This document shows positions 6,351 through 36,433 of a DNA stretch of 36,638 bases, one piece after another. The translations under genes were made by a program, and so were the position numbers. Source of the stretch: Planctomycetota bacterium (GTDB lineage: Bacteria; Planctomycetota; Planctomycetia; Pirellulales; Lacipirellulaceae); contig JAADGD010000228.1 in the NCBI GenBank assembly GCA_013152515.1, positions 673 through 37,310 on the forward strand. The letters are read 5' to 3'. The notes below the pieces were generated by a model. The model made no database searches. It saw only the letters and a list, made by a program, of their open reading frames with translations, and was not told the origin of the DNA. Positions within the stretch are counted from its first letter, which is position 1. Each line of letters starts with the position of its first letter.

Positions 6351-7382
6351 ATGTACTCCCTCGCAAGAAAAGCCTCCTGTTGTTGTGTTTCGATAATCTT
6401 CCTGTTTGCCTTCTTCGTCGCAACTAACCCAATCCTTGCTGCCAAAGTGGGCGAGCAGATTGAGCGCAGCGGCGACGAAATCATGGTCTGCGGCCAGTTG
6501 TTTCACACGACGGCGCCGGTCGTGCTTTGGACCGATCCCCAAGGCTACGACGCCTATCGTGTTGAGCGTCGATTTGGTGATCTCGAAAACTCTGCCTGGG
6601 AAGAGTCGGTGAAGGGAGCCTCCTCGCTCGACTCGCCCAACCGATACGGAATTCGCAAAGATCAGCTCACCGCCAAGCAGCTTGAGCAAGTTCGCGGCGG
6701 CGGGTGGACTTTGCCGTTGCTGAAAGACGTGGTTGATCAGTTTGTCATGCACTACGACGTTTGCGGCGTCAGTCAGCAGTGTTTCAAGGTGTTGCACGAC
6801 CGTCGTGGCTTGAGCGTGCATTTCATGCTCGACATCGATGGTACGATCTATCAAACGCTTGATCTCAAAGAACGCGCCTGGCACGCGACGATCTCGAATT
6901 CGCGGTCGGTGGGTGTCGAAATCGCCAGCATCGGCGCGTACCCCACCGGTAAGCAAGAAGTACTGAAAAAGTGGTATTTTCCCGCGGACGATGGCGGCAC
7001 GCTGCTTCGTCCGCCCCGAACGTTGGGGCATCTTGGCCTGCGGACCGTGCCTTTTTACGGACGTCCAGCCCGCCCCCAGCCGATTGTCGGCACCGTCCAA
7101 GGCGTCGAGCTAACGCAGTACGATTTTACGCCCGAGCAGTACGACTCGCTCATCAAGCTAACGGCAACGCTGTGCCATGTTTTTCCGAAGATCAAGTGCG
7201 ATTACCCCCGTGATAAACAGGGCATGCTGATCACCCGCGTGTTGCCCAAGAAACAATGGAAAGCTTTCCAGGGTGTCTTGGGGCACTATCACGTGCAGAA
7301 GAACAAAACCGACCCAGGCCCAGCCTTCGACTGGGAGAAAGTAGTCGGTGGGGCCGAACAGTTGTTGGACAAGACAAAATAA
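6351..7382 (+). CDS. Secreted N-acetylmuramoyl-L-alanine amidase (Amidase_2 / AmpD-PGRP fold)
   Basis: Signal peptide (SCCCVSIIFLFAFFVATNPILA); QFVMHYDVCG...GLSVHFMLDIDGTIYQTLDLKERAWHATISNSRSVGVEIASIG; C-terminal GHYHVQKNKTDPGPAFDWEKV matches the third zinc-ligand/KxDPG motif. Confidence 0.93.
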   Translation: MYSLARKASCCCVSIIFLFAFFVATNPILAAKVGEQIERSGDEIMVCGQLFHTTAPVVLWTDPQGYDAYRVERRFGDLENSAWEESVKGASSLDSPNRYGIRKDQLTAKQLEQVRGGGWTLPLLKDVVDQFVMHYDVCGVSQQCFKVLHDRRGLSVHFMLDIDGTIYQTLDLKERAWHATISNSRSVGVEIASIGAYPTGKQEVLKKWYFPADDGGTLLRPPRTLGHLGLRTVPFYGRPARPQPIVGTVQGVELTQYDFTPEQYDSLIKLTATLCHVFPKIKCDYPRDKQGMLITRVLPKKQWKAFQGVLGHYHVQKNKTDPGPAFDWEKVVGGAEQLLDKTK

Positions 7383-16000: not shown

Positions 16001-16498
16001 CGAGCTATCGGTCCAAGCTCCGGAGAAGGTGACTTCGGTGTCGTCGTTGTCGAGTACGACTTCGTTGGATTGATTGCCAATGGGTCGCATCGGTACCACG
16101 GTCGCCCCGGCACGGAAAATGTAGTCCGCAAAAAAAGTCGCCTGATCTTGGTTGCCGAGGTCCTCGATCATGTTTAGCAGCAGCGGACGTTGGAAGGACC
16201 AGTCGCCGGCGTTAGGGAAATCACCCGTGATGCCGTGTCCAGCGTTGACGTAGATGATTTTCCCGGAAAGCGCCCCGTCGGGCTGCGTGCCGACATCGAC
16301 CAAGCCAGCAGCGGCGAGTAGATCGCGTCGCTCCAGGGTTTCAAACGTCAGCGATCTCTCGGGGGACAGCGGAGCGCCCGGAGAGTTTGATGTGGACAGG
16401 GATTTCGCGCATCGCCAGAGGCGAGCCAAGGAGTGTTGCATCTTGATGTTCCGGTACAGAATTCCGCGTTTCGTTGAGTGCGTAGGAAACGCTCCCAC
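13067..16498 (-). CDS. Large secreted N-acetylmuramoyl-L-alanine amidase (Amidase_3) with golvesin-like domains, FN3, GATase-like domain and dockerin-like repeat
   Basis: GKIIYVNAGHG, DRLFISFHSNAGGGRG and NEFDATIVETGFHDSQLDASLMRDADVRDAIARATYQGVVRYF are Amidase_3 landmarks; VTFSGAWTDSSSSIYFG...VADMIRFGNG and YAETGSWSTAGNTGFNGTSYRF...IADAVRIV are golvesin/xanthan-lyase-like; FN3 VTDVRAETAGADSVTVSWTPP; dockerin-like GDFDADGDIDGSDFLAWQ...GDANGDTNVDADDLVIWQ; N-terminal FETLERRDLLAAAG. The true start may be the internal Met of MQHSLARLWRC. Confidence 0.87.
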   Translation of the reverse strand: MGAFPTHSTKRGILYRNIKMQHSLARLWRCAKSLSTSNSPGAPLSPERSLTFETLERRDLLAAAGLVDVGTQPDGALSGKIIYVNAGHGITGDFPNAGDWSFQRPLLLNMIEDLGNQDQATFFADYIFRAGATVVPMRPIGNQSNEVVLDNDDTEVTFSGAWTDSSSSIYFGDAGDVPYRFASKSVTETAFARYRPNIPESGFYPVYSWARYGSDRVADQLYRIRHSGGITEVTVNHRRVGNGMVYLGSYYFEAGTDGYVDISNRSADPNGSVVIADMIRFGNGMGDVVQSGTTSGRSREDEAGLYWIEWQVSNSQGISTSEYRTSSNDRSATVSATPRYAEYMNREADGALSDRLFISFHSNAGGGRGVVALHNTANGGDTPNQLLLAQLLGQEVNDDLVDQNGQFEYNWSNRGSNVTFQATFNYGEINNSVINNEFDATIVETGFHDSQLDASLMRDADVRDAIARATYQGVVRYFNNVDGGVTPITMLPGKVTDVRAETAGADSVTVSWTPPVANTYNGGTATGYRIYGSTNGYGFDGGTFVAGGATASYTLTGLDPSAGAYYFKVVAVNAGGESAGSEVVAALPNAGPKGILIVNGFDRLSRQQNPVQAGAERVRPRQSNSFDYSVQVAEAIEASSPDLVVDTASNEAVIAGDVLLSNYQAVVWISGEESTVDSTFDGAEQSLVGNYLNNGGQLFVSGTEIGWDLDAQAGGTTFYNDSLRADYVSDDANTYNVAGAVGSIFEGLSFSFDDGTLFYDADFPDVITELGGATRALNYVGGAGGGAAIQYDSGASTKLVNFAFPFETITSDADRTAVFSRVLDFFDFEVTLSDVELILDNDDGSPIYAETGSWSTAGNTGFNGTSYRFAPAGAAATAQWNFGLPFAGQGEVFVQFRSGSNRTSDTVYQIDTGGGIETVSISQKTDDLVWVSLGNFDFSAGARSILLDAGASSGGSVAIADAVRIVVPAPVTGNGDFDADGDIDGSDFLAWQRGFGTMGTATLEQGDANGDTNVDADDLVIWQTQYATATVLALATSAASAITSESTDTQRLDTQLLSALAQRVSLIPKSTASQRSNHNFVARETVQEAVQRAIPTSHVLRSTVRQSNAPSPIQEHQQSESAKQDAFAELGLDERISLRIAGF

Positions 16499-16685
16499 TG
16501 AACATGGTCGTTGTCAATGGAATCCATTGTAACTTGAATTGTCCAATAGCCGAAGTGTTTCGCGTAGCCAAATTGAGGTGAAATCTATCGCCCATGCGCA
16601 CTCGACCTGACACTGCTGCGCAATGCTCACCTATTTTGGTGATTCCCCGTTGGTTCGTACTTTGATCTTAGTGATAATATCCTGG

Positions 16686-18404
16686 ATGAAAACTCACCAT
16701 TGGATTACTTCGATTTGGCTAAGCGGCGTCCTCTTGGGGGTTGCGATTCCCCTAGGAGACTCGATTGCTGCCGACCAGTGTGTCGTGGCAGCGGTCCAGC
16801 CATTGGCCGTTGATGCCGGCATCGCCGCTTTCCGCGCAGGCGGCAACGCGGTCGATGCCGCCGTGGCGACGGCACTGACTTTGGGAGTGGTCGACAATCA
16901 CAACTCAGGCTTGGGAGGCGGTTGTTTTGTGTTGATCCGCACTCCTGACGGATCTTTAATCGCCATTGATGGTCGCGAAAAAGCGCCCTCTGCCGCTTCG
17001 CGAGATATGTTTCTTCGTGATGGCAAGGCGCAGCCTGAGTTAAGCACCGTGGGGCCGTTGGCGGTGGGAGTGCCCGGCGCACTGGCGGCGTACGCGAAGG
17101 CGTTGGAAAAGTGCGGCGAGCGTCAACTCGGTGATCTATTGTTGCCAGCGGCTGAGTTGGCTGAACACGGATTTCCGATCGACCGCATCTATGCTGCCAA
17201 GCTCAAAGACAAGGCGGAGACGCTTCAGCGATTTCCTGGCAGCCGCACAACATTACTAAAACCAAACGGCACCGCCTATCGCGAGGGCGAAATCCTCCGT
17301 CAGCCCGATCTCGCCCGATCCTACAATCAAATTGCCAAGCATGGCATCGACTGGTTTTATCGAGGAGAATTTGCCGAGCGGGTCGGTCAGTGGATGAAGG
17401 CCAATGGCGGGATTCTCACTGCAGAAGACTTTGCCAACTACCAAGCGGTCGAACGCGAGCCGATTGTGACAATCTACCGCGATTTCAAAATCGTCGGATT
17501 CCCACCCCCAAGCTCGGGCGGTGTGCATGTTGCTCAGATTCTCAACATGCTTGAACAATTTCCGCTGGCTGACGAATATCGGAAAAATCCCGTCACCGCG
17601 TCCCACTTGATGCTCGAAGCGATGAAGTTTGCCTTTGCCGACCGTGCGTATTGGTTGGGGGACGCCGATTTCGCCAAAGTGCCGCGCGGGTTAGTTGACA
17701 AAAGCTACTGCCAAACGCTGGCCGCGCGCATCCGCCGAGATGCTCTCGCCGAGGTTCCCAGGCACAGCACGCCGCCGCGCGCGACGAGCGATCTATTCGG
17801 CAAACATACCACGCACATCGCTGCGGCCGATTCGGCAGGCTACTGGGTGGCCATCACCGCCACGGTCAACACGAGCTTCGGCTCGAAAGTGATCGTACCG
17901 GGCACAGGGATCGTGTTGAACAACGAGATGGACGACTTTTCGAGCCAGCCAGGCGTGCCGAACGCTTTTGGTTTGATCGGGGCAGAGAACAATTCCGTCG
18001 CCCCGGGCAAACGGCCCTTGTCGAGCATGAGCCCGACGATTGTTCTTGATGCCAACGATCAGCCAGTGCTAACGGTCGGTGCGGCGGGCGGACCGAAAAT
18101 CATCACACAGGTCGTGCAAACAATCATCCGTCGGCTCGATTTTGGCCAATCGCTCAGCGACGCGGTGGCTGCACCCCGATTGCACCATCAGTGGCAACCA
18201 GATCGAGTGTTGGCGGAAGAAGCGGTGCCGGAAAAAATTCTAACGGGGCTGAGAAAAATCGGCCATCAGATTCGCACGATCTCCGCCAGCGGCGTCACGC
18301 AAGCGGTCGGGCGCGACGAGCAAGGCGAATTGGTTGGGGTTCACGATCCTCGTGTGCCGGGTAAGGTTGGGTATGCGGAGTTGGAGTTGGAGGTGGCTGA
18401 GTAG
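16686..18404 (+). CDS. ggt: Gamma-glutamyltransferase (Ntn-hydrolase)
   Basis: GLGGGCFVLIRTPDGSLIAIDGREKAPSAASRDMFL; SSGGVHVAQILNMLEQF; catalytic-Thr region TTHIAAADSAGYWVAITATVNTSFGSKVIVPGTGIVLNNEMDDFS; PLSSMSPTIVLD...GAAGGPKI. ORF is open from 16623; the Met at 16686 precedes a signal peptide. Confidence 0.95.
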   Translation: MKTHHWITSIWLSGVLLGVAIPLGDSIAADQCVVAAVQPLAVDAGIAAFRAGGNAVDAAVATALTLGVVDNHNSGLGGGCFVLIRTPDGSLIAIDGREKAPSAASRDMFLRDGKAQPELSTVGPLAVGVPGALAAYAKALEKCGERQLGDLLLPAAELAEHGFPIDRIYAAKLKDKAETLQRFPGSRTTLLKPNGTAYREGEILRQPDLARSYNQIAKHGIDWFYRGEFAERVGQWMKANGGILTAEDFANYQAVEREPIVTIYRDFKIVGFPPPSSGGVHVAQILNMLEQFPLADEYRKNPVTASHLMLEAMKFAFADRAYWLGDADFAKVPRGLVDKSYCQTLAARIRRDALAEVPRHSTPPRATSDLFGKHTTHIAAADSAGYWVAITATVNTSFGSKVIVPGTGIVLNNEMDDFSSQPGVPNAFGLIGAENNSVAPGKRPLSSMSPTIVLDANDQPVLTVGAAGGPKIITQVVQTIIRRLDFGQSLSDAVAAPRLHHQWQPDRVLAEEAVPEKILTGLRKIGHQIRTISASGVTQAVGRDEQGELVGVHDPRVPGKVGYAELELEVAE

Positions 18405-21735: not shown

Positions 21736-22770
21736 TTACGGGGCAATCAACTCGACGCCGCTGCCGTTGCCCTTCGGGTAGCGACAAACACCGCGTTCGA
21801 CAATCGCGCCGGTGGCAATGTCCTGGGCCAGCAAAGCAGCGCCGTCCATGTCGACATAGTCGAGCAGCGGCAGCAACTGGGCAATCGCCGAGATGCCGAC
21901 GGTCGACTCGGTCATGCAGCCGACCATCACTTTGAGGCCCAGCTCTCGCGCGACATCGATCATCCGACGCGCTGGCGTCAGCCCGCCGCATTTGACGAGC
22001 TTGATGTTCACGCCGTGAAAATGGCCGTGACAGGCGGCTACATCAGATTCTTGGATACAGCTTTCGTCGGCAATGATCGGCAAGGCCGAGTGGGCCAATA
22101 CTTTTTTGTGCCCATCCCAATCGTCCGCCCTCAGCGGTTGCTCAAGGAATTCGACGTTTAGCGACTTTAGCTCTTTGGAATTGCGAATCGTCTCGTCCAC
22201 GCCCCAGCCGCAATTCGCGTCGACGCGAAAGACTGCCGAAGTATGTTTTCGCAGTTCGCGGATAATCTCCAAATCGTTGGACGTGCCAAGCTTGATCTTG
22301 TAAATGGGCCAGTCGGGTACTTCGTTTAGTTTCGATACCATCACCTCGACCGTATCGATGCCGATCGTAAAGTTCGACACCGGCGTTTTTGAATTGTCTA
22401 AGCCCCACAACTGATAGACCGGCGCACCTTGCTGCTTGCCCCACAGATCGTAAGCCGCTTGGTCGAGTGCGCACAGCGCAAAGGGACAATCGCGTAACGG
22501 GCCGCTCACTTCGGCCCAAAGCTGCTCGGGATTGAGCGGATGCTGACCTTCGACGATGTCACGCACCGACTCCAAGGCGAGCTGCATCTTCTCGAGCGTC
22601 ATACCGTAGTACGAGTTGGTCGTCGCCTCGCCGTAGCCAGAATGCTGCCCGTCGTGAAGTTCGACGATCAGCGTCGGCTGCACATCGGTCGATTCGCGAG
22701 AAATCGTAAACGTGTGCCGCAGCGGAAGATCAAAAGTATGCGTCGACAGTTTCAATTGAGAGATCGCCAT
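21736..22770 (-). CDS. Enolase-superfamily dipeptide epimerase (L-Ala-D/L-Glu epimerase-like, or DgcA-type N-acyl-D-Glu racemase)
   Basis: TLIVELHDGQHSGYGEATTNSYYG; IYKIKLGT; FRVDANCGWGVDETI; VEFLEQPLRADD; PIIADESCI; GVNIKLVKCGGLTPARRMI; MVGCMTESTVGISAIAQL...DMDGAALL. ATG at 22770 shares its A with the upstream TGA stop. Confidence 0.92.
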   Translation of the reverse strand: MAISQLKLSTHTFDLPLRHTFTISRESTDVQPTLIVELHDGQHSGYGEATTNSYYGMTLEKMQLALESVRDIVEGQHPLNPEQLWAEVSGPLRDCPFALCALDQAAYDLWGKQQGAPVYQLWGLDNSKTPVSNFTIGIDTVEVMVSKLNEVPDWPIYKIKLGTSNDLEIIRELRKHTSAVFRVDANCGWGVDETIRNSKELKSLNVEFLEQPLRADDWDGHKKVLAHSALPIIADESCIQESDVAACHGHFHGVNIKLVKCGGLTPARRMIDVARELGLKVMVGCMTESTVGISAIAQLLPLLDYVDMDGAALLAQDIATGAIVERGVCRYPKGNGSGVELIAP

Positions 22771-23852
22771 CAAGAGGCCGCCAACTGCGGCAACATCGCT
22801 TGAACTGCCTGTACGAGTTCTTCAGGCCCGTGTCGAATCACGTCGCACACCGGCAGCCCTAACTCGCTGCGGATCTTTTCTCGCTCTGCTTCGGCTTCTT
22901 CTGCCGAAACATTGTGGCTATTCATCGCCACACCGATCACCTTGGACGGGCCCATCAGGTTGGCCATCGTTTCGTAGACCTCGATCAGCTTGGAAAGAGA
23001 GTGCAGCGGCACATGCTCCATGCCATTCACCTTCTTGCGTCCAACCTCGTAGCACATGATCATGCCGTGAGGCATACAGCCATGCAGCAAGCTGAGCGTG
23101 ACACCGGAATAGCGAGGATGTGCGAGACTCCCCTGCCCTTCGATCAAAAGGATGTCGTGGTGTTGATTCGCCAGGATGAGCTTTTCGACCGCCCCGCTCA
23201 CAAAATCGGCAACGACGCAGTCGATCGGTGCACCTTCGCCTTCGATCATGATGCCGGTCTGGCCTGTCGCGACAAATTTCGACTTGTGTCCTGCACGCTT
23301 CAAGGCATGGGCAATTTCCAACGACACCAACATTTTACCCAGGCTGCAGTCTTGCCCAACGGTGTGGATTCGCAGACACTCTTCGCGGATATTTAGCCGG
23401 TCGGCCACGTCGCGTTCATTGTTTTTGCGAACATCAATCAGACGGACGCCTTTCGCCTGCGCCGCTTTGCAAAAATCGGCGTCATGGGAAAGAAAGTCAT
23501 GCAGGCCCGACACAATATCCATGCCTCGATCGATGGCCTCCAAAATAACGCTACGCCAAGCCTCTGGCATTCGCCCCCCAGGAGGCGCGATGCCGAGCAT
23601 CAAAGCATTGGCTTCGGGCACCGCGTCGAGACTGGCCACGACCGGTATCTCGCCACCGGTACCGAGTAGCTGTTGGGCCGTTTTCCCCACCTGCGTGGTG
23701 TCGAGCAAGGCGAGGACATCTTCGGGCTTGTAGCGAATCACCGAGGCAGCCGTCTTGGCGGTGATCGGTTCGCTATGACCTTCGGTTAAAATGATCAAGC
23801 GACGTTCGCCTAGTTTCTTCTCGGCAGATTGGTTCCGTGATTTGTCAGTCAT
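22770..23852 (-). CDS. DUF1611 family protein (P-loop/Rossmann; DgcN-like)
   Basis: ALMLGIAPPGGRMPEAWRSVILEAIDRGMDIVSGLHDFLSHD; RLIDVRKNN; RIHTVGQDCSLGKMLVSLEIAHALKRAGHKSKFVATGQTGIMIEGEGAPIDCVVADFVSGAVEKLIL; LLIEGQGSLAHPRYSGVTLSLLHGCMPHGMIMCYEVGR; these are characteristic of DUF1611. Confidence 0.92.
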   Translation of the reverse strand: MTDKSRNQSAEKKLGERRLIILTEGHSEPITAKTAASVIRYKPEDVLALLDTTQVGKTAQQLLGTGGEIPVVASLDAVPEANALMLGIAPPGGRMPEAWRSVILEAIDRGMDIVSGLHDFLSHDADFCKAAQAKGVRLIDVRKNNERDVADRLNIREECLRIHTVGQDCSLGKMLVSLEIAHALKRAGHKSKFVATGQTGIMIEGEGAPIDCVVADFVSGAVEKLILANQHHDILLIEGQGSLAHPRYSGVTLSLLHGCMPHGMIMCYEVGRKKVNGMEHVPLHSLSKLIEVYETMANLMGPSKVIGVAMNSHNVSAEEAEAEREKIRSELGLPVCDVIRHGPEELVQAVQAMLPQLAAS

Positions 23853-24120: not shown

Positions 24121-25692
24121 TCAAGCTCCTGCTGTTGCACCAGAGAACAAGAGCTTGGCCAACGCACGTTGCGAGGCGGGCACGTCGCTGAACGTGCAAA
24201 GTTTTTCTTTGGCACCGTCGTATTTTTGCAAAGCCTCGGGAGTGCCTAACGATGCCAGCACGCACGGTTGCTGTCGAGTGAGTTGCTCGACGAAGGTGTG
24301 TTGCTCGGGTAACAATCCAAAAGCGTGCCAAGCGGCCGGTTTGACGATGATTGCCACGAGCACTTGCTCGGTATTCGCAGCGTGCGAAAGCACTCGCTCG
24401 AAATCTTCTGGCTGACTGCGCGGGCCGAGTTCGTGATACTCGCTGTTCGGCACGATTGCTTTCAGCGCGGCGCCGAGTGGTTGTTGCGGTGGATCGAGGT
24501 GCGATTCATAGGGGCGCACCAGAATAGCGCACACTTTTTGCTTCGGATCAAACGGTAATCGTTTGCCCTCGCCGGCGAGAGTCCGTATCGATTCCGTGGC
24601 GACTTTGTTGGCCAATGCGTCCGTCTTTTCTGCCAGCGAAGTATCCTCGGCAGGCCCTTCGTTTTCAAACATCAACCGTTTCAGACGCCAGAGCCTCGCA
24701 AAAGCTTCTTCAACACGTCCTTCCGGTAGCTCGCCAGCATTTACGGCTGCTTCGAGCGCGTCGAGTGTCGTTTGCGGCTTAGCAACATCGAGCAAAATAT
24801 CGACTCCCGCTAGCAGCGTCGCGACCGCCAGCTCTCCTTCACTGGCGCATTGCGATTTCACGCCCTCCATCAGCAAACTATCGCTGACAACGGCTCCTTC
24901 AAAGCCCATTTGCTTGCGGAGCAACTCGATAAGTATCGGTTGCGAAAGTGTTGCCGGTGTGCCAGTGTCGTCCCAGGCTGGATAACAAACGTGCGCACTC
25001 ATGATCAGCGGCACGCCGGCCGCGATTGCTGCACGAAACGGGACCAGCTCGCATTGGTCCATCGTTTTGCGATCCGCGACGACTGTCGGCACAGCATGGT
25101 GTGAGTCTTCGTGCGTATTGCCGTGGCCTGGATAATGTTTTGCCGTACTCAGCAAACCGCCCGCCTGGCAGCCACGAATAAAGGCACTGACCAGCTGCGC
25201 GACGCGCTCAGGATTGTCGCCAAAGGCGCGCGTCGCGATGATTGGATTGCGCGGATCGACATTCACATCTGCCACCGGTGCGAACGCAATATGCAGACCA
25301 CTGTCGCGTGCATCGAGCGCGGTAAGCCGGGCAAATTCTTCAACGGTTTTTTCTGCGTCGTCCCCCAACGCCTCGAATGCCATCGCGTGCGGAAACAATC
25401 CAGGCCCATGCAGTTGCTGGCCGACACCGCGCTCGATGTCGGAGGCGACCAAAAGTGGTAGTTTGGAAATCGATTGCAGGCGAGCCAATGTCTCTGGGGT
25501 TTGGTCGCGCTGGCCGTTGAACACAATCAGGCCGCCAACGGGGCAATCGGGCAACAATTCGGCAATGCGCTCGGCATCTTGCTCAACAGTGCGCACCGGC
25601 GGCAGGTTCGAGCCGATACGCACAACAATTAACTGCGCGAGCTTTTCTCGCAACGTGGACGGAGGAGATAATTTAGTGGCAGGCTGGTTCAC
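24121..25692 (-). CDS. nagZ: Beta-N-acetylhexosaminidase NagZ (GH3), two-domain type
   Basis: GHxxTxxDSH-type catalytic loop KHYPGHGNTHEDSHHAVPTV; MSAHVCYPAWDDTGTPATLSQPIL; VVSDSLLMEGVKSQ (nucleophile Asp); C-terminal GH3_C-like domain; no evident signal peptide. Confidence 0.95.
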   Translation of the reverse strand: MNQPATKLSPPSTLREKLAQLIVVRIGSNLPPVRTVEQDAERIAELLPDCPVGGLIVFNGQRDQTPETLARLQSISKLPLLVASDIERGVGQQLHGPGLFPHAMAFEALGDDAEKTVEEFARLTALDARDSGLHIAFAPVADVNVDPRNPIIATRAFGDNPERVAQLVSAFIRGCQAGGLLSTAKHYPGHGNTHEDSHHAVPTVVADRKTMDQCELVPFRAAIAAGVPLIMSAHVCYPAWDDTGTPATLSQPILIELLRKQMGFEGAVVSDSLLMEGVKSQCASEGELAVATLLAGVDILLDVAKPQTTLDALEAAVNAGELPEGRVEEAFARLWRLKRLMFENEGPAEDTSLAEKTDALANKVATESIRTLAGEGKRLPFDPKQKVCAILVRPYESHLDPPQQPLGAALKAIVPNSEYHELGPRSQPEDFERVLSHAANTEQVLVAIIVKPAAWHAFGLLPEQHTFVEQLTRQQPCVLASLGTPEALQKYDGAKEKLCTFSDVPASQRALAKLLFSGATAGA

Positions 25693-25847: not shown

Positions 25848-27722
25848 TCACGTTTCAGGTTCGTCCGTTTTCTTGCCAAATTCGGCGTCGAGTGGAATCA
25901 GCCAGCAGACGAAAAAGCTGGGAATCGTCGCTAGCATGACCCAGAGGAAAAAATGTTGATAGCCGATCAGTTCTTGCAACCAGCCGCTCATCATGCCGGG
26001 TATCATCATCCCTAATGCCATGAAGCCCGTGCAAATTGCGTAGTGGGCCGTCTGGTGTTCGCCCTGGGCGATGTAAAGCATGTACAGCATGTAGGCAGTA
26101 AAGCCGAAGCCGTAGCCAAACTGCTCGATCCCGACGGCTAGGTTCACCGCCCAATAGCTCTCCGGCTGCACTTGTGACAAAAAGACGTACACCGCATTCG
26201 GCAAGTTGATCGCGATGACCATCCACCCCAACCAGAATTTTAGGCCACGCTTCGCCGCGACTAGTCCGCCGAGAATGCCACCGAGGGTGAGCATTACGAT
26301 CCCGATAGTGCCATAGACAAAACCAACCTCAGTCGTGGTTAGGCTAAGTCCTCCATATTGACGACTGTCCAATAGAAAAGGTGCAGCCATTTTTGCGAGC
26401 TGTGCTTCTGAAAAGCGGTAGATTAACAAAAACGCCAGCACTGTCAGAATACGTGGTTTGCGAAAGAAGCTTGCGAAGGTGGCGAGGAACTCTTGGAAAA
26501 CCTGAACAAACCCTTGGTTTTGCATTTCACTGGCCGCGTCTGACTGCTCGGGTCTTGGCAAGGCAAAGGCATGATACGCCCCAAAAACGAGGAACAATCC
26601 GGCCAGCAGATAACACACGGTCACCCATGCGAGACGCGAATTCCCCGAGCGTGCCGAGAACACGGTCGTCACTTCTTGAGTCAGCTTCCGATCGAGCTGC
26701 ACAAGCACCGCCATCGGAAAGTCGCAATTGTTTTCGGTAATCGTAAAGCGATCTCCTTCGAGTAGGCGAATGTCATTGCTGCCAGAGGTTTTTTGAAGAT
26801 TGACGACGACTTCGGTGTCGGCTGCGACCGACTGGCTTATTCCTAGATAAAAAACGCCAACGTTTCCAGTTAGATTATCGACAGCCGCCGGTGGCTCGCT
26901 TGGCCCGAAACGTGTTCTTATTGAGTTCTCCAGCGATGTTAGCCAAGCAGCTTTTTCGTTTTTTTCGGCAGTCTTGGCCGTTGCTTCTTCTCCGTAGAAG
27001 TTGTGGGATATGTTCCATTCTCGCACTTTGGCGAGTAGTGTTTGAACCTCGTCAGCATCGCGCGGCTGAACACCAATCTGCAAGGTGACGGGATGTGCCA
27101 GCAATTCCATGCTGCTGCTGCCTTCGATCTCGACTTCCTTCGGGAGAAACTGAGCAACCGAAGTGATGTCAGGTGCTGCTTGCACGCGAAGTTCAAGATC
27201 AGCAAGGCCGGTCTGACTTTCCAGCAAGCCAGCCACCATCACCAACACTCCTTGGCCAACAATCATGGCGAGTCGGTAAAAAGTGCTTCGTATGCCCACG
27301 AACCAAGCCTGATCATGCGAAGACATCGCGATCATGTAAAAGCCATCGGCGGCAATGTCGTGGGTCGCGGAGCTAAAGGCGAGCAGCCAAAGAAACATGA
27401 GCGTGTACTGCAAAAAGCCGCTCGTAGGGATCGTCAGCGCTACGCCCGCCAAGCCTGCGCCGATGAGCAATTGCATCGCAACGATCCACCAACGCTTGCT
27501 GCGCAGAACATCAACCAGGGGGCTCCAAAAGGGTTTGATCACCCACGGCAGATAGAGCCAGCTCGTGTAGAGGGCGATTTTCGTGTTCGAGACGCCGAGG
27601 TTTTTGTACATGATCACCGAGACGATCATCACCATCACATACGGCAGCCCCTCTGCAAAATAGAGCGAGGGGATCCAAGTCCAATGATTTCGCGAAGGTT
27701 TAGGTGATTCTGTGCTTGGCAT
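25848..27722 (-). CDS. AmpG-like MFS muropeptide permease with large soluble insertion
   Basis: WIPSLYFAEGLPYVMVMIVSVIMYKNLGVSNTKIALYTSWLYLPWVIKPFWSPLVD is the AmpG-like MFS signature; multiple TM segments; about 190-residue hydrophilic insert after the fifth TM. ORF is open to 27761; Met at 27722 (MPSTESPKPSRNHW) preferred. Confidence 0.88.
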   Translation of the reverse strand: MPSTESPKPSRNHWTWIPSLYFAEGLPYVMVMIVSVIMYKNLGVSNTKIALYTSWLYLPWVIKPFWSPLVDVLRSKRWWIVAMQLLIGAGLAGVALTIPTSGFLQYTLMFLWLLAFSSATHDIAADGFYMIAMSSHDQAWFVGIRSTFYRLAMIVGQGVLVMVAGLLESQTGLADLELRVQAAPDITSVAQFLPKEVEIEGSSSMELLAHPVTLQIGVQPRDADEVQTLLAKVREWNISHNFYGEEATAKTAEKNEKAAWLTSLENSIRTRFGPSEPPAAVDNLTGNVGVFYLGISQSVAADTEVVVNLQKTSGSNDIRLLEGDRFTITENNCDFPMAVLVQLDRKLTQEVTTVFSARSGNSRLAWVTVCYLLAGLFLVFGAYHAFALPRPEQSDAASEMQNQGFVQVFQEFLATFASFFRKPRILTVLAFLLIYRFSEAQLAKMAAPFLLDSRQYGGLSLTTTEVGFVYGTIGIVMLTLGGILGGLVAAKRGLKFWLGWMVIAINLPNAVYVFLSQVQPESYWAVNLAVGIEQFGYGFGFTAYMLYMLYIAQGEHQTAHYAICTGFMALGMMIPGMMSGWLQELIGYQHFFLWVMLATIPSFFVCWLIPLDAEFGKKTDEPET

Positions 27723-27785
27723 CGTGCTATGGTTGTAAATTATGATGGGCCGAAGAACCAAAAAGCGTGAGATTCGTCATCAAAC

Positions 27786-27904: not shown

Positions 27905-29497
27905 TTACTTCAAATCAAGAGTTGCCATCGGCCCTTCCACGCCGGTGCGACTGACTGCCGAGACGGCAATTTTCTTTGGCGAAGGAGAATTGCCATCCGC
28001 GTCGATTGCCCATCCGTTGACATGACCGGGAGAAACTTCAATCTTCCAATGGTCGTCGGTGAAAGTCCTGACCACCCAGAGCCACGGTGCCTTATCGTCA
28101 GACGAAACAAACGACACGGCCCGTTTGCCAGCCGTTTTTTTGAGTTGCAAAGTAGGCAACCCAGGCGATTCATCGCTTAGCCAGGACGAAGCGGGAACCA
28201 ACGCCGGCTTACCATAGGGGCCATCCTTCAACGCCTTTGCCATGCCCCGACGATCATCCATCAGCGCCTTCATGCTGAAATGCACGTTGCCTGTCGCGCC
28301 TGGATGTGCGCGCGTCAGCTCGATTTGCTGCGTGATCTCGCTTGTCGGCCAATTGCCAAGCTCTTCGATAGAAACGCGCGAAGTATAATTTCCGATCCAA
28401 AGATGTCGATGCTTCTGGTTCTGCTCGTGCCACCATTGCATCAGCACTGGATAGCTTTGACCGGGGCTTTCGATCTTCCAGTAAAGTTGCGGTGTGAGAT
28501 AATCGACCCAACCTTGGTTCCACCACTTTTTCGCGTCTGCGTAAAGCGAGGCATACGCGTCGAAACCTTGGATCTGCGGCGGATGCCCCGGACGCCAAAT
28601 GCCGAATGGGCTGATGCCGAATTTTACCCACGGTTTTACTTGGTGGATTTCGTCTGACAAGCGTTGAATCAAGCGATCGACATTCTGACGGCGCCAATCA
28701 TCGCGATCCAACGTGTTGCCTGCCGCCTGCGCCTGTTGCCAACTGCGATCGTCAGGGAACGGCACAAGCTGTTTTTTATCGTCTTTGATCTGGTAGGGAT
28801 AAAAGTAGTCGTCAAAGTGAATTCCATCGACGTCGTAACGGCTGACGACATCCAAGATCACCGCCACATTATGTTCGACAGCATCAGGCTCGCCTGGGTC
28901 AAGCCACAGATGCTTTCCGTACTTGCGAACGATGTGCGGTTTGGTCTTACTGACGTGCGTGGCAGCTAACTCCCCTTGGGAACCTGGATGGAGCGCTCGA
29001 TAGGGATTGAACCAAGCATGAAGTTCCAGTCCACGGCGATGCGCTTCGGCAACGGCGAATTCGAGCGGATCGTAAAACGGCTGAGGCGGTTGGCCCATCG
29101 TGCCGGTGAGATATTCCGACCACGGTTCCAGCTCCGAGGCGTACAACGCATCGCAGTGCGGGCGTACTTGGAAAATGATCGCGTTGAGGTTCAACTCGAC
29201 CGCTCGGTCGAGTATCGCGATCAGCTCTTGTTGCTGTTTTGCGGAGGAAAGTCCCCTTTGGGAAGGCCAGTCGATATTGGCGACGGTAGCCACCCAAGCG
29301 GCGCGGAATTCTCGCTGCGGTGACGGAACTTCCTCTGTTTCTTCGGCTGACAAGCAGCTCGGCAGCATCGTGCCGAGCGTGAAGAGAAAGAGGAACGAAA
29401 GAAATTTCGGGCAGAAGTGGCTATTGATTGGATTCACCGCTTTCGTTGCAACAGGTCGGATTGCATTCGAGGCATCAGAGAAGTGGCATTCTGACAC
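27905..29497 (-). CDS. Family 10-like glycosyl hydrolase (DUF187/GHL10; DigH/YddW-like)
   Basis: EFRAAWVATVANIDWPSQRGLSSAKQQQELIAILDRAVELNLNAIIFQVRPHCDALYASELEPWSEYLTGTMG...HAWFNPYRAL; VSRYDVDGIHFDDYFYPYQ; VKFGISPFGIWRPG. Confidence 0.93.
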   Translation of the reverse strand: MSECHFSDASNAIRPVATKAVNPINSHFCPKFLSFLFLFTLGTMLPSCLSAEETEEVPSPQREFRAAWVATVANIDWPSQRGLSSAKQQQELIAILDRAVELNLNAIIFQVRPHCDALYASELEPWSEYLTGTMGQPPQPFYDPLEFAVAEAHRRGLELHAWFNPYRALHPGSQGELAATHVSKTKPHIVRKYGKHLWLDPGEPDAVEHNVAVILDVVSRYDVDGIHFDDYFYPYQIKDDKKQLVPFPDDRSWQQAQAAGNTLDRDDWRRQNVDRLIQRLSDEIHQVKPWVKFGISPFGIWRPGHPPQIQGFDAYASLYADAKKWWNQGWVDYLTPQLYWKIESPGQSYPVLMQWWHEQNQKHRHLWIGNYTSRVSIEELGNWPTSEITQQIELTRAHPGATGNVHFSMKALMDDRRGMAKALKDGPYGKPALVPASSWLSDESPGLPTLQLKKTAGKRAVSFVSSDDKAPWLWVVRTFTDDHWKIEVSPGHVNGWAIDADGNSPSPKKIAVSAVSRTGVEGPMATLDLK

Positions 29498-29909: not shown

Positions 29910-30623
29910 CTACGCGCGATTTCGGCGAACCAGGGCCATTCCCATAGCGGCCATTAACAGCAAACCGGTTGTAGGCTCGGGAATAATCCTGCCGGCTGGA
30001 TCGTAGACGATATCGTCTATCAGTAGGACGGCATCTCCATCCACTGCCGTGCGAATGGCTATCGAATCGAGCTCGACGGTCGCTCCATCGATAGTTCCGT
30101 TTCCTAAGCCACTGCTGCCGTAGTAAGCGTCGAACGTAGTCCAATCGCTGTCGTCGGCCAGATTCCATTGGTAAAGACGCCATTGGCCGTCTGCAATCAC
30201 TGTTTTGGGTATGCCGATGTCGGCCGTACCTGGGTCATCTACAGCAAAGCCTACTTCCAAGCCCAGACCCGCGTAGGCCTGATCCAACTTTGCCCGAAAG
30301 CCGATATATCCCGTTGTCGGGACACCGACAACGAAGTGGCCGGCCCCGTTGGCGACGAATCGAGTGATCCACCCACCAGCCGAAGCGGGATCGTCGTTGA
30401 GTGTGAGTTCCGATGCTTGCGTCGAGCCGCCAACCCCATCGGCGACAAGTGCAATAGCCGAGGACGGAAGAATCCCGGATGTACTTCCCGAAAAGTTCGG
30501 GTCGAGGTCAAACGGCGCTCCGCCAGCCTCGTAGTCTTGAATCACAACAGTCGCTGCCGTGACCGGCAGCGCACATACTGCCAACAGGCAGATCGCAACT
30601 AAACACTTTTTCATCACGTTCAT
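29910..30623 (-). CDS. PEP-CTERM protein with beta-sandwich-like domain shared with the SpoIID protein
   Basis: Signal peptide MNVMKKCLVAICLLAVCALPVTA; GFAVDDPGTADIGIPKTVIADGQWRLYQWNLADDSDWTTFD...NGTIDGATVELDSIAIR...LLIDDIVYDP; C-terminal IPEPTTGLLLMAAMGMALVRRNRA. Confidence 0.88.
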   Translation of the reverse strand: MNVMKKCLVAICLLAVCALPVTAATVVIQDYEAGGAPFDLDPNFSGSTSGILPSSAIALVADGVGGSTQASELTLNDDPASAGGWITRFVANGAGHFVVGVPTTGYIGFRAKLDQAYAGLGLEVGFAVDDPGTADIGIPKTVIADGQWRLYQWNLADDSDWTTFDAYYGSSGLGNGTIDGATVELDSIAIRTAVDGDAVLLIDDIVYDPAGRIIPEPTTGLLLMAAMGMALVRRNRA

Positions 30624-30857: not shown

Positions 30858-32495
30858 TTAATGCGCACTAGGCGAAAGCCTAGGTGCCCACTGCCTTTTG
30901 GCCGCAAGGGCCCCAAGCCCTACCAATGCAATGAATAACGTATTTGGCTCTGGAACAGATTCCAGGCCAGATAACGCCGGAGTACTCAAATTGCGTTGCC
31001 AAACGAGAAAATCGCTGCCATCGACGTCGCCATCTTCGTCCGCATCGCCGTCGGAGATCTCCGCTGAGCCCGTGGTGCCCAAACCCGTTTGCCAATCGAA
31101 TAAGTCCGCGCCGTCAACCATTCCATCGCCATTGAAGTCGCCGGGCACAAGGGGTACGAAGACTGCTTGCGGATCCCAAAAGATATCGTCGAGATAGACC
31201 TGGGCGTCGCTGCTGCCAAGTAGCTGGATCGAATCAATCGTGACGTTCTCGCCATCGATTTGGCCATTGCCGGCGCCGATCCAGGCTTCCCAGTCGCTTG
31301 ACTCGTCGAGAAACCATTCGTACTTGCGCCACTGGTTATCGGCAATCACTTGTTTCAGCAGACCGCGATCGCCGGTTGTGGGGTCGTCTATTGCGATGCT
31401 TACTTGCAAGCCAGGATCGTCGGTTTTCAGCCAGAAGCCGACCGAGCCAATCGACTCGAATTGCAGGTTAGCGATGCGTGATGCGGCGTTGGAACTACCA
31501 CCGAAATCGCTGTAGCGCGTACCCGAAACATGCCGAACCAGAAAGTCGCCGCCAGCGACTTCGTCGTACGTAATATCAAGTAGTTGCGAATAGCCACCAC
31601 TGCGGGCTTCGACACTGGAACGTTCCGCAGTCGAGCCGGCAACGTTGGCGGATGTGCTACCCGAGAAGGTTGGCTCACGATAAAAAGTGCCTTCGTTTCC
31701 GGCGATAGTTCCGTCGGTAATCCCCGAGTAGTCGTCGAAGTTGACGAGCGTCTTCAAACCGTAATTCACGCCCGTGCCCGCAGTCGTGGCTGTACGCAAC
31801 TGGATGTCGGCTCCGTAGTAATACTTCAGAATGTCGAGATACGAGACGCTATTGTCCGAGAGAAAGTCGGCGCCGTTTTGACTGCTTGCGCCACGGTTGG
31901 GCCAGTTGGGATTGGTCGTCATCCCTACAAACCCAAGCGTCGAGCCTTGATTCAATCCGCCCGTCAATCCATTAGTGTAGGTGTAAGTCACGAACCGCTC
32001 GGTGTTTGTCGAATCGGGATCACCCGGTCCGACAATCACGCCAGGAGCGTTGATGTCGAATGGCTGATTGGCATCGGGGATGGCCCCTGCCACATAGAAC
32101 GAGGCGATCAACACATCGTTTTGCGAGCCGATGTTGTCACGGACCCAAAGAATCTCGCCTTCGGTCGCCTGCGCCGCCTGCTGATGAATGCTTCCGGCGC
32201 TCCCTGCACAACTATAAACCTGGTCGTTCGTGCCATCATTGATGAACCCTTGCAAATTCATTTTGTAATAGGCAAACGTCCGGGCCGCGACTGCCTGGGC
32301 CTTGAGCGCCTCGAAGCTGGCCAAGCCATTTTCGCATTTCACGACGTTCGGTACGTAGTCAGATTCAGTGTCAACATTACCTGAGCCAGTCACGTTGATC
32401 GTAGGCAAGGCGTCGAACTGGGCGCAGGCATGGCTTGCGAAAAACAGAGCCAGCAAAAGCGGGAGAAAAAATGCCATCGCGCGCATGGTGTTCAT
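30858..32495 (-). CDS. Secreted SpoIID/LytB-domain protein with glycan-binding-like domain, dockerin-like repeat and PEP-CTERM signal
   Basis: SpoIID landmarks VVKCENGLASFEALKAQAVAARTFAYYKMN, NDQVYSCAG, ATEGEILWV...VLIASFYVAGA, YLDILKYYYGADIQL; dockerin-like DFNGDGMVDGADLFDWQ...DGDADEDGDVDGSDFLVWQ; VPEPNTLFIALVGLGALAAKRQ. Signal peptide from Met at 32495 (MNTMRAMAFFLPLLLALFFASHACAQ); ORF open to 32660. Confidence 0.88.
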   Translation of the reverse strand: MNTMRAMAFFLPLLLALFFASHACAQFDALPTINVTGSGNVDTESDYVPNVVKCENGLASFEALKAQAVAARTFAYYKMNLQGFINDGTNDQVYSCAGSAGSIHQQAAQATEGEILWVRDNIGSQNDVLIASFYVAGAIPDANQPFDINAPGVIVGPGDPDSTNTERFVTYTYTNGLTGGLNQGSTLGFVGMTTNPNWPNRGASSQNGADFLSDNSVSYLDILKYYYGADIQLRTATTAGTGVNYGLKTLVNFDDYSGITDGTIAGNEGTFYREPTFSGSTSANVAGSTAERSSVEARSGGYSQLLDITYDEVAGGDFLVRHVSGTRYSDFGGSSNAASRIANLQFESIGSVGFWLKTDDPGLQVSIAIDDPTTGDRGLLKQVIADNQWRKYEWFLDESSDWEAWIGAGNGQIDGENVTIDSIQLLGSSDAQVYLDDIFWDPQAVFVPLVPGDFNGDGMVDGADLFDWQTGLGTTGSAEISDGDADEDGDVDGSDFLVWQRNLSTPALSGLESVPEPNTLFIALVGLGALAAKRQWAPRLSPSAH

Positions 32496-32559: not shown

Positions 32560-32572
32560 AGTAAGTTAGTTA

Positions 32573-32700
32573 GAACGTGTTTTGAAATGCTAATCGACTG
32601 TAGCCTCCGGCTCTGCCGGGGGACGGAAATTGAAAAAATACTACCCAAGGCACTATCCACCGGCGGAGCCGGGGGCTAAATCGGAATTTCAAAACATGTT
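32573..32700. repeat. MITE-like long imperfect inverted repeat
   Basis: Outer arms aacgtgttttgaaat / atttcaaaacatgtt (14/15 complementary); inner arms tagcctccggctctgccgg (32601-32619) / ccggcggagccgggggcta (32660-32678) with 2 mismatches. Confidence 0.8.
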
Positions 32701-32721
32701 CTTAGAAGCTTGATAGGTTTC

Positions 32722-33759
32722 TTAACGACGGCGAGCAGTGAACAGTCCAAAGACGGCCAACAGGACCAGCGAGGTAGTGGCAGGCTCGGGCACGGACGTG
32801 ACCAAGGGAATGTCGACCAGCTTTAGCAAAATGTTATCGAAGGCCGCAAACGCCGCATGGGGATTGCTACCACCCGACGAGGGGAGCGACGAAGGGATAC
32901 CAATTCGCAAATCTTCAAAACCGGCGAAGGTCGTTTCGATGAACACCGTGTCCGAAGCATCTACGCCAGGCGTCCCCACCCCAGGGACCGGATTTGTGGG
33001 ATCGTTCTTTACGCCATCGGCATAGAGGTCCAAACTAAAGACAATTTGATCGAGTCCGATCACCGCCTTGAAGGTATGAAACCCTGCACCGACCTCTTCC
33101 TGGGTATCGAGAGCGGGGTCCAAAGGATTGTCGACTTTCGTAGCATCGCCAAAACTGACCCAGTTCGGGTTACTTTCACCGCCTGTGAAGAATAACTGTG
33201 CACGATAGACAAATCCTGTGGGGTCATTATAAAGCCCCATTTCAATAATGTTTTCAACGGGAGCTAAGCTCCGCAGTCCAAGCGTAAGCCTTTTATTGGC
33301 CGACAAGGCATCGTCTCCCAGGTCGAAACTCAACTCCACGTTCTGCGTTGCAGTGGGGTAAACGTCGATCAGCGGATTGCCGTTCCAAAGGTTCACCGTA
33401 CCAGCCCCGGTTGGACTGCAAGTCGCCGCGTCGAGCGTTCCACAAAACTGGGCCGCCTGACCATCGATTCCTGGGTACTTCTGTTGATCAGGTCCATAAG
33501 CCGCTTGCCAAGCTGGGATGCCGGCAGGATTCGTTCGTTGAACTTCCAGGAAATCGGCACCGTCGGTACCTGGAATGACCGTATTGGCGTCGACAAGTTC
33601 CAGCCCATTGTTGAGGCCACTCTGCGAGGGCCATGCGCCCAGCAAATCAGTGTTGTTGTTATAGGACTCAAAATCCTCGTCCACGATCGTCGTATCGGCC
33701 AATGCAGGTAGGGGCAAAGTGAGAAGGACGGCTAGTGATAGTGCTGAGCGGATGTGCAT
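32722..33759 (-). CDS. PEP-CTERM protein (function unknown)
   Basis: Signal peptide MHIRSALSLAVLLTLPLPALA; C-terminal VPEPATTSLVLLAVFGLFTARRR; DTTIVDEDFESYNNNTDLLGAWPS...NLWNGNPLIDVYPTATQNVELSFDLGDDALSANKRLTLGLRS resembles a lectin/LamG-like beta-sandwich. Confidence 0.85.
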   Translation of the reverse strand: MHIRSALSLAVLLTLPLPALADTTIVDEDFESYNNNTDLLGAWPSQSGLNNGLELVDANTVIPGTDGADFLEVQRTNPAGIPAWQAAYGPDQQKYPGIDGQAAQFCGTLDAATCSPTGAGTVNLWNGNPLIDVYPTATQNVELSFDLGDDALSANKRLTLGLRSLAPVENIIEMGLYNDPTGFVYRAQLFFTGGESNPNWVSFGDATKVDNPLDPALDTQEEVGAGFHTFKAVIGLDQIVFSLDLYADGVKNDPTNPVPGVGTPGVDASDTVFIETTFAGFEDLRIGIPSSLPSSGGSNPHAAFAAFDNILLKLVDIPLVTSVPEPATTSLVLLAVFGLFTARRR

Positions 33760-33974: not shown

Positions 33975-35225
33975 TTACCCGGTCGAACGGACGAGCTTTT
34001 TGCGGTACTCCAGCGGCGTTTGTCGGAATCGTTTGCGAAAGGCGACACCAAAACGAGTGGCGTTAGAAAAGCCGCAAGCAAGCGCGATTTCGCTGATCGG
34101 TAAATCGGTTCGAGAGAGCATCGCTTTGCCTTTTTCGAGTCGGACACGGCGAATCTCTTCGGCGGGCGAACGGCCAAGGTATTTCTGGAATTGAATTTCG
34201 AGGCTACGTCGCGAGACCGGCACTTCACGGAGAATATCTTTCACAGCGATGTCGTGGAAAGCATGCGTTTGGATATAGCGCAGCGCATGAACGACCACTT
34301 CGTCGTCGATGGCCAAGATGTCGGTTGACTGACGACTGATCACTCCCTCTGGCGGAACCAAGCGTGGCTCGGCAGAAGGTTGTTCGCCGAGCATCGTGCG
34401 ATCTAGCAGCGCCGCCGCTTCGTAACCAATGCGCTGCCCAGCGACCGCGATACTCGACAGTGGCGGCGTACACACATCGCACAGCAGTTCATCGGTATCC
34501 CCTGCCAAAATGGCGACTTCGTCGGGTACGCGGATATTGCTGAGATAGCAGATCTCGGCCAACTGGCGGCCACATTGAGCGTTGACCGTGAAGATGGCTA
34601 CGGGACTTGGCAACGAGGACAGCCAACGACTTACGCGACGTTGTTGTTCTCCCCAACCGATCTTGCGACCCACTCGATAACCCGGTTTGTATTCACGGCA
34701 GTCGAAGCCTGCCCGTTTGACCGTGGCGACGAATGCTTGCCCTCGCTTGGCCGAATACTTCCTGCTAGGAGGAGCAAAGTAGGCGAACTGCTCGAATCCA
34801 CGATCTCGCATGTGGCCAAACGCCAAGGCGGCCCGCTCTTGGTCGTCGGTCACCACATCCAAGATTCCGTCCAAACCTTCAAAGACCGTGTCGACATTGA
34901 CCGTGGGAAGCCCGCGCTCTCGAATCTGATCGAGCTGGGTGCGAGTCCCTATGCGAGCAATGATGCCATCGCCACTCCACAGATCGGGCAATGCCGATCG
35001 TTGTTCGTGATCGCGGGGGTCGATCAGCAGGTTCCAATGTCCATGATTCTGAGAATAGTCGGCGATTCCACGGATAACACTGCAGCCCCAGCTATCATCG
35101 GTTTCGACAAGCACCGCAATTTGGCGAATATGGTCACTCGGCTGCATAGTGGCGATCCACGGTTTGTTTTGAAGAACTAGGCTGTACTGGTCTCGTCTTT
35201 CCATCTTAGACAGATACATGCGCAA
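33975..35225 (-). CDS. XylR-type transcriptional regulator (LacI-like sensor + AraC HTH)
   Basis: IAVLVETDDSWGCSVIRGIADYSQNHGHWNLLIDP; TDELLCDVCTPPLSSIAVAGQRIGYEAAALLDRTM; AraC HTH DIAVKDILREVPVSRRSLEIQFQKYLGRSPAEEIRRVRLEKGKAMLSRTDLPISEIALACGFSNATRFGVAFRKRFRQTPLEYRKK. Start codon uncertain (Met at 35147 also possible). Confidence 0.93.
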   Translation of the reverse strand: MRMYLSKMERRDQYSLVLQNKPWIATMQPSDHIRQIAVLVETDDSWGCSVIRGIADYSQNHGHWNLLIDPRDHEQRSALPDLWSGDGIIARIGTRTQLDQIRERGLPTVNVDTVFEGLDGILDVVTDDQERAALAFGHMRDRGFEQFAYFAPPSRKYSAKRGQAFVATVKRAGFDCREYKPGYRVGRKIGWGEQQRRVSRWLSSLPSPVAIFTVNAQCGRQLAEICYLSNIRVPDEVAILAGDTDELLCDVCTPPLSSIAVAGQRIGYEAAALLDRTMLGEQPSAEPRLVPPEGVISRQSTDILAIDDEVVVHALRYIQTHAFHDIAVKDILREVPVSRRSLEIQFQKYLGRSPAEEIRRVRLEKGKAMLSRTDLPISEIALACGFSNATRFGVAFRKRFRQTPLEYRKKLVRSTG

Positions 35226-35359: not shown

Positions 35360-36433
35360 ATGACAAAAGTAGCCATTGGCTTAATGAGCGGTACCTCTTG
35401 CGATGGCGTCGATGCGGCGCTGCTACAGACCGACGGCGAGAGCGATATCACTTTTCTCGGCGGATTAACGGTTTCTTACGGCAACGAACTGCGCGGGCGG
35501 CTACAGGAAGCTTCGCAACATGATGTACCGCTAACAGAACTTTTGCGTCTGGAACGCGAAATCACCGAGCATCACGTGCAAGCCGTTCGTAGTTTGTTTA
35601 ATGACTATCCGTCAGAAGCCAAGCAAGCCACAATCGTCGGCTTTCATGGCCACACGGTGCGACACATGCCGGGAGAAGCTCTCACGTTGCAAATCGGCAA
35701 CCCCTGGCTGTTGGCCAAAGAATTTGCTCTGCCGGTTATCTCCGACTTTCGACGTTGCGACATGGCAGCCGGCGGGCAAGGTGCCCCGTTGGTGGCAATG
35801 TTTCATCGAGCTTTGTTTGCTGACGAAGCCCGGCCGACGGTGGTGCTGAACCTGGGCGGTGTTGCGAACGTCACCTGGCTGGGCGAGAACGACGAGATCA
35901 TCGCCGGCGACTCGGGGCCTGGCTGCGGACTGATCGACGAATGGACGCAAACAATGGCCGACTTACCGCACGACATTGATGGACGTCTCGCCCTGGCAGG
36001 CAAGGTCGACGACGCGACGGTCGAGGCGGCTTTGCGTGCGGACTTTTTTGCCCAGCCTTTGCCCAAGGCGGCGGACCGTTACGACTTCGATCATGTGGAT
36101 GTCTCTACCCTAAGCGTCGAGGACGGTGCGGCAACTCTTTGCGCCGTGACTGCCGAGGCGATCTACCGCGCCGTCAAAAATTTGCCAGCCATGCCCAAGT
36201 ATATTTGGGTCACAGGGGGTGGGGTGCATCACCCAGTGATCATGAAAATGCTCGAAGACCGCTTCGGCGAGATCAAAAACATCCGCGAACGCGGCCTCAA
36301 CCCCGACACACTCGAAGCCGAGTGCTTTGCCTGGCTCGCCGTACGTCATCAACTACAACTCCCCCTAACGATCCCCGAAACCACCGGCTGCGAAAAGCCG
36401 ATCAGCGGCGGGGCGGTCGTGAATTTCGTTTGA
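35360..36433 (+). CDS. anmK: Anhydro-N-acetylmuramic acid kinase
   Basis: AIGLMSGTSCDGVDAALLQTDG; GFHGHTVRHMPGEALTLQIGNPWLLAKEFALPVISDFRRCDMAAGGQGAPLVAMFHRALF; VVLNLGGVANVTWL; AGDSGPGCGLIDEWT; WVTGGGVHHPVIMKMLEDRFG. Confidence 0.97.
   Translation: MTKVAIGLMSGTSCDGVDAALLQTDGESDITFLGGLTVSYGNELRGRLQEASQHDVPLTELLRLEREITEHHVQAVRSLFNDYPSEAKQATIVGFHGHTVRHMPGEALTLQIGNPWLLAKEFALPVISDFRRCDMAAGGQGAPLVAMFHRALFADEARPTVVLNLGGVANVTWLGENDEIIAGDSGPGCGLIDEWTQTMADLPHDIDGRLALAGKVDDATVEAALRADFFAQPLPKAADRYDFDHVDVSTLSVEDGAATLCAVTAEAIYRAVKNLPAMPKYIWVTGGGVHHPVIMKMLEDRFGEIKNIRERGLNPDTLEAECFAWLAVRHQLQLPLTIPETTGCEKPISGGAVVNFV

Follow-up and report, generated by a model that had tools for sequence, protein, structure and literature searches.

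Gene content of the locus

The window, by which we mean the entire 36,638-nucleotide stretch of planctomycete DNA analysed here, carries a gene for a secreted SpoIID-type protein in a region that also encodes an AmpG-type permease, a NagZ-like hexosaminidase, an anhydro-N-acetylmuramic acid kinase (AnmK), amidases and a GHL10 protein, the last from what we take to be the family of E. coli DigH (Table 1). An alternative in-frame GTG lies upstream of the SpoIID gene's ATG, at position 32660. The interval between this gene and the next PEP-CTERM gene contains an imperfect inverted repeat (32563-32711; 26-nt arms, 81%, 97 nt apart), possibly a small palindromic element or a terminator.

Table 1. 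Coordinates of the SpoIID gene, its encoded parts and neighbouring genes in the window
Feature	Position	Strand	Basis or remark
Amidase_2 (N-acetylmuramoyl-L-alanine amidase)	6351..7382	+	domain search
Amidase_3 with Golvesin_C, fn3 and dockerin-like parts	13067..16498	-	domain search
gamma-Glutamyltranspeptidase	16623..18404	+	domain search
Beta-lactamase-like/PG-binding/D-Ala-D-Ala carboxypeptidase (S11)/M19 dipeptidase polypeptide, 1082 aa	18453..21701	-	
Enolase-superfamily protein, L-Ala-D/L-Glu epimerase-like	21736..22773	-	domain search
DUF1611 protein	22770..23852	-	domain search
GH3 beta-N-acetylhexosaminidase, NagZ-like, no obvious signal peptide	24121..25692	-	domain search
AmpG-type muropeptide permease	25848..27761	-	TIGR00901, E 5.4e-49, below curated cut-off
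GHL10 protein	27905..29497	-	Pfam PF02638, E 2.6e-65
Stand-alone module copy with PEP-CTERM tail	29910..30623	-	homology to aa 246-444 of SpoIID protein; module part 29991-30557
SpoIID-type secreted protein, 545 aa	30858..32495	-	ATG start at 32495
PEP-CTERM sorting tail, aa 513-545	30858..30959	-	Pfam PF07589, above cut-off
Dockerin-like Ca-binding repeats, aa 451-503	30987..31145	-	Pfam Dockerin_1, below cut-off
Beta-sandwich module, aa 246-444	31164..31760	-	common to GHL10, GH25 and NAGPA proteins
Compact SpoIID catalytic domain, aa 25-235	31791..32423	-	Pfam/NCBIfam, AF2, Foldseek
E55 codon, candidate catalytic glutamate	32331..32333	-	invariance in 73 sequences; PDB SpoIID alignment
Sec-type signal peptide MNTMRAMAFFLPLLLALFFASHACA, aa 1-25	32421..32495	-	read by eye from the sequence
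PEP-CTERM protein without assigned function	32722..33759	-	adjoins SpoIID in most relatives
XylR-type regulator: sugar-binding domain and AraC HTH	33975..35225	-	domain search
AnmK, anhydro-N-acetylmuramic acid kinase	35360..36433	+	NF007141, E 2e-121, above cut-off; Pfam, E 1.8e-83

The DUF1611 gene overlaps the enolase-superfamily gene (21736-23852). This pair resembles the DgcN-DgcA pair for D-glutamate use, which would fit stem-peptide catabolism. At the place of the 1082-aa polypeptide, several relatives match only its first ~690 residues, and the AmpG-type permease has ~190 extra residues (aa ~187-377) that cannot be aligned in many relatives. A gene for an HGSNAT/DUF5009-type membrane acyltransferase (4949-6112), with a possible amino-sugar role, lies near an amidase gene.

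The locus, with AnmK, the regulator, GHL10, AmpG, NagZ, the epimerase-like gene and the carboxypeptidase, is kept wholly or partly among relatives. SpoIID is found near AnmK and the regulator in 8 of the 13 genomes examined, the window's own included, and the fuller gene set surrounds it in G010, G018 and G016, with the genes still together in G016 though in a different order. In G031, G035, G019, G024 and G017, the SpoIID gene is separate from the locus.

Architecture of the SpoIID protein

The 545-aa protein runs from a signal peptide through the SpoIID domain, a beta-sandwich and dockerin-like repeats to a PEP-CTERM tail, and contains the motifs CENGLASFEALKAQAVAARTF, NDQVYSC, YLDILKYYYG and VPEP-hydrophobic-KR. 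The open reading frame agrees with the coordinates and motifs of the initial annotation, which gave no strand (it is the minus strand), and its account of a secreted SpoIID-domain protein with an extra beta-sandwich, a dockerin-like repeat and a PEP-CTERM signal was upheld at each point. The Pfam SpoIID model (PF08486) matches aa 45-116 with an E-value of 7.5e-11 (43 bits against a cut-off of 23). The match lies far above chance, since the full architecture is retained in 12 other full-length family relatives (59-81% identity). The beta-sandwich is homologous to the product of the next gene (E 3e-25) and appears similar to carbohydrate-binding modules (CBMs) in a low-confidence model. Dockerin_1 narrowly misses its Pfam gathering score over aa 451-503 (E 5e-4, 20.6 versus 22.9 bits), which makes "dockerin-like" the apt term. 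The Pfam PEP-CTERM match (aa 513-531, E 6.6e-5) is above cut-off and the same genome encodes an exosortase (PF09721, E 7.8e-40). The protein thus has both marks of a PEP-CTERM protein, a signal peptide by eye and a PEP-TM-basic tail by Pfam, and its tail and the genome's exosortase agree with the PEP-CTERM/exosortase system (PMC1569441).

Fold and conserved residues of the SpoIID domain

The NCBIfam SpoIID_LytB model (TIGR02669) matches the protein in two separate parts (E 2.9e-15) and falls short of its curated cut-off (56.9 versus 83.3 bits), owing to the loss of the central part of the canonical domain; some Myxococcota members of the same subfamily (L183, L192 and L180) pass this cut-off. 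The sporulation SpoIID equivalog (TIGR02870) gave 34 bits against a cut-off of 234.75, and this lack of an equivalog match together with the conserved recycling locus led us to reject a role in sporulation. SpoIID ranked first, weakly, in a single-protein sequence search of the PDB, and was reached at E 1.7e-7 with a profile of 13 relatives.

Structure prediction against SpoIID, proposed as a check in the initial annotation, was performed with AF2 on an alignment of 73 sequences and gave a domain model with a pLDDT of 94.8 and a pTM of 0.92; a full-length model from 13 close sequences (pLDDT 46) was set aside for the catalytic domain. Foldseek comparison of the domain model with the PDB returned seven matches at E<0.001, every one of them a SpoIID, from C. 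difficile and B. anthracis, or the germination lytic transglycosylase SleC. The top match was the SpoIID structure 5i1t (probability 1.0, E 2.9e-7). TM-scores to the PDB matches were moderate (0.45-0.56 by query length), as may be expected for a modelled domain missing a segment of its targets. SleC (PDB 9h68; probability 1.0) likewise has no alignable GHGVG stretch; it differs from the window protein in being a spore cortex enzyme and is barely alignable in sequence.

The candidate catalytic glutamate of the initial annotation, E55, is part of the E-x(n)-EALKAQ segment, aligns with the GEM glutamate of the PDB SpoIIDs and corresponds to E101 of C. difficile SpoIID, which is catalytic in an enzyme that works after the amidase SpoIIP (PMC6221140). 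Eight residues, E55, Y47, L64, Q67, A68, R72, Q92 and T111, are invariant across 46 subfamily members and 27 canonical SpoIIDs. A chance motif match is ruled out by fold and conservation. The same invariance, in subfamily members that are themselves divergent, makes it very improbable that the protein has kept the SpoIID fold only to bind glycan or build a matrix, with catalysis lost, as does the fusion of SpoIID to amidase domains, although loss of the GHGVG motif and flanking PEP-CTERM proteins with no recognised enzyme domain would be in keeping with such a role. We infer that SpoIID is catalytically active and prefers denuded strands. C54, which adjoins E55, and C96 are both present in 41 of the 46 subfamily members and both absent in 5 (p = 7e-7, a value that ignores kinship); their joint presence or absence suggests that they may form a disulfide in the subfamily.

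A compact SpoIID subfamily

Proteins with the window-type domain form a group of their own. A profile of this domain scores its members at 154-410 bits and canonical SpoIIDs at no more than 57 bits, and in a maximum-likelihood tree the window-type SpoIIDs make up one clade (support 100/100) on a long branch. Planctomycete members form a single clade (100/99), placed among Myxococcota members under midpoint rooting. Compared with the SpoIIDs of Bacillus and Clostridioides (PF08486, TIGR02669; PDB 4rwr, 5i1t, 5txu), the window protein has the same fold and catalytic glutamate and common motifs (the EALKAQAVAARTxA helix, DQVY and SQxGA/YxxILxxYY), but it belongs to this separate clade, has no sporulation context and adds a module and a sorting tail. 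The subfamily domain is also ~60-100 residues shorter, with the loss lying mid-domain, and the canonical GHGVG before SQxGA is absent: NRGxxSQNG stands at the site of GHGVG(M/L)SQ. Because of this replacement and the missing residues, chemistry or specificity may differ.

Window-type SpoIIDs were found in 14 of 44 genomes of the window's own family, in 58 of 284 sampled Myxococcota, with up to six copies per genome, and in only 3 of 341 sampled Planctomycetota, the window's genome counted. The initial annotation placed a SpoIID domain in a non-sporulator; this in itself is not surprising, since PF08486 matches occur in 306 of 345 sampled Planctomycetota genomes, where canonical SpoIIDs are common, and the domain is widespread elsewhere (PMC6635528). 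That the window type simply descends from the SpoIID common in the phylum was rejected, because it forms a clade apart.

The copy in a planctomycete of family f84 (G301; L198, L200) falls within the window's own family in the tree, a placement that suggests transfer of the gene. Four window-type SpoIID genes stand in tandem in one Myxococcota genome (G576, L202:5993-16751). With the window's genes as queries, the recycling locus was not seen around SpoIID in six Myxococcota and two f84 members. A literature search, with most subscription journals outside its scope, returned nothing for SpoIID paired with Myxococcota and no paper on SpoIID together with PEP-CTERM. The compact subfamily appears to be undescribed, as do its sorting tails, its fusions to amidases and the module that it shares.

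The beta-sandwich module

The module recurs across the window's planctomycete family (L045, L041, L039, L054, L217, L221 and others). Nineteen other module-bearing proteins have a recognised catalytic domain (7 GHL10, 10 GH25 lysozyme and 2 NAGPA), in a set chosen for resemblance to the full window protein and not for function. No Pfam match, CBM included, falls within aa 246-444, and a low-confidence model of the module finds fold matches to many CBMs. These matches and the conserved aromatics W389, Y392, W394 and W402 point to glycan binding. Since the module is found on GHL10, GH25 and NAGPA enzymes, aa 246-444 is probably a wall-glycan-binding region, and as a candidate binder of peptidoglycan strands occurring across four catalytic families it offers a handle for finding wall-glycan enzymes.

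The occurrence of the module on GH25 lysozymes also bears on the type of cleavage. The protein could be a hydrolytic muramidase acting on denuded strands, similar to the SpoIID of Waddlia chondrophila, and leaving reducing MurNAc ends that would not feed AnmK directly. The altered NRGxxSQNG motif would suit this, and Waddlia SpoIID provides a precedent, with anhydro products from peptidoglycan but muramidase activity on denuded strands (PMC6635528). We regard this as rather unlikely, given that the nearest solved folds are annotated as lytic transglycosylases and that the gene is linked to the one for AnmK, which acts on an anhydro sugar. The 1,6-anhydro form of the product, as suggested in the initial annotation, is putative, with a chance that we put at about even.

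Association with peptidoglycan recycling

Within the 44 family genomes, AnmK and AmpG accompany SpoIID in all 14 carriers, as does a strong MurQ match (partial in G022); a GHL10 gene is present in 13 of them and was not found in the incomplete genome G022. Where AnmK is missing (10 family genomes), so are AmpG, SpoIID and any strong MurQ match. Recycling does not require SpoIID, as 20 of the 34 AnmK genomes are without the window type, and the association of SpoIID with AnmK is modest (Fisher p 0.018, without phylogenetic correction). MurQ of the window's genome is on another contig; in several relatives it lies ~1 kb from AnmK. The recycling route is thus present or absent as a whole, and SpoIID is an accessory to it. 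The proposal that its products enter AmpG, NagZ and AnmK gains from the conserved neighbourhood with these genes and GHL10, and has to be qualified in that SpoIID is dispensable to the route and unlinked from it in several genomes.

We consider it likely that the window protein is a PEP-CTERM-sorted compact SpoIID, held in place by its module, that is predicted to cut peptidoglycan strands by means of E55 and to feed AmpG, NagZ, AnmK and MurQ. The protein would be exported and sorted via its PEP-CTERM tail. Amidases encoded in the same region would most likely strip peptides from the glycan strands first, after which SpoIID would cut the strands, with E55 as acid/base, while the beta-sandwich and perhaps the dockerin-like repeats hold the enzyme on the glycan. 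The freed saccharides would be imported by AmpG and pass through NagZ, AnmK and MurQ in cytoplasmic recycling, or would be scavenged.

It is improbable that the protein acts on the peptidoglycan of septa or of separating cells and that co-regulation alone accounts for the recycling genes around it. Waddlia SpoIID and E. coli DigH do work at septa (PMC6635528, PMC12288456), but the PEP-CTERM tail, the lack of SpoIID in 30 of 44 family genomes and the mobility of the gene between lineages argue against it. Waddlia SpoIID is likewise a SpoIID domain in a non-sporulating PVC bacterium, likened here by description and not by sequence; it differs in being septal, and no sorting tail was seen in its description (PMC6635528).

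Sorting signals and the source of the substrate

The preferred reading, a strand-cutting enzyme that supplies the recycling route, has to be weighed against the location of the protein, since surface sorting may put SpoIID out of the periplasm, the compartment that supplies AmpG. One proposal sends PEP-CTERM proteins to the outer membrane or across it (PMC1569441), and a use on wall material from outside the cell would then be favoured; if the tail exports SpoIID beyond the outer membrane, foreign wall debris and not the cell's own wall may be the substrate. Lineages append their own surface-sorting signals to the same SpoIID domain. In Myxococcota, window-type SpoIID proteins can have a MYXO-CTERM tail (L180 above cut-off, L169 below), Golvesin_C and SLH domains are also attached to the window-type domain, and Amidase_2 is fused to it in L183 and L192 (Pfam) and in L194 and L196 (read from sequence). 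Such fusions are as expected if the substrate is amidase-stripped strands, as for SpoIID after SpoIIP (PMC6221140).

It is accordingly a serious possibility, to which we give somewhat less than an even chance, that the protein is a surface enzyme which scavenges or attacks foreign walls with secreted amidases, the locus being a catabolic island. The lineage-specific PEP-CTERM and MYXO-CTERM tails and SLH domains would fit, as would the secreted amidases and peptidases and the XylR/AraC-type sugar-sensing regulator encoded in the region, and the Myxococcota genomes with up to six copies. On the other side, cells also ordinarily recycle their own wall through AmpG, NagZ, AnmK and MurQ. More tentatively still, horizontally spread, surface-displayed SpoIIDs of Myxococcota and some Planctomycetota might, with amidases, digest the walls of other bacteria by a chemistry altered through NRGxxSQNG, with a new peptidoglycan-glycan-binding module interchangeable among SpoIID, GHL10, GH25 and NAGPA enzymes.

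Known roles of SpoIID are in sporulation and in septal wall remodelling in Chlamydiales. A third use, in which the enzyme is exported to digest wall glycans for reuse, is suggested by a distinct branch with lineage-specific sorting tails and with amidases as partners. The locus outlines a route for peptidoglycan salvage in a phylum with a cell wall that was long a matter of debate. GHL10 (PF02638) is an enzyme family distinct from SpoIID, with no sequence relation seen between them, and DigH is a denuded-glycan hydrolase (PMC12288456). The GHL10 gene lies in the same locus as SpoIID, and GHL10 proteins carry the same C-terminal module.
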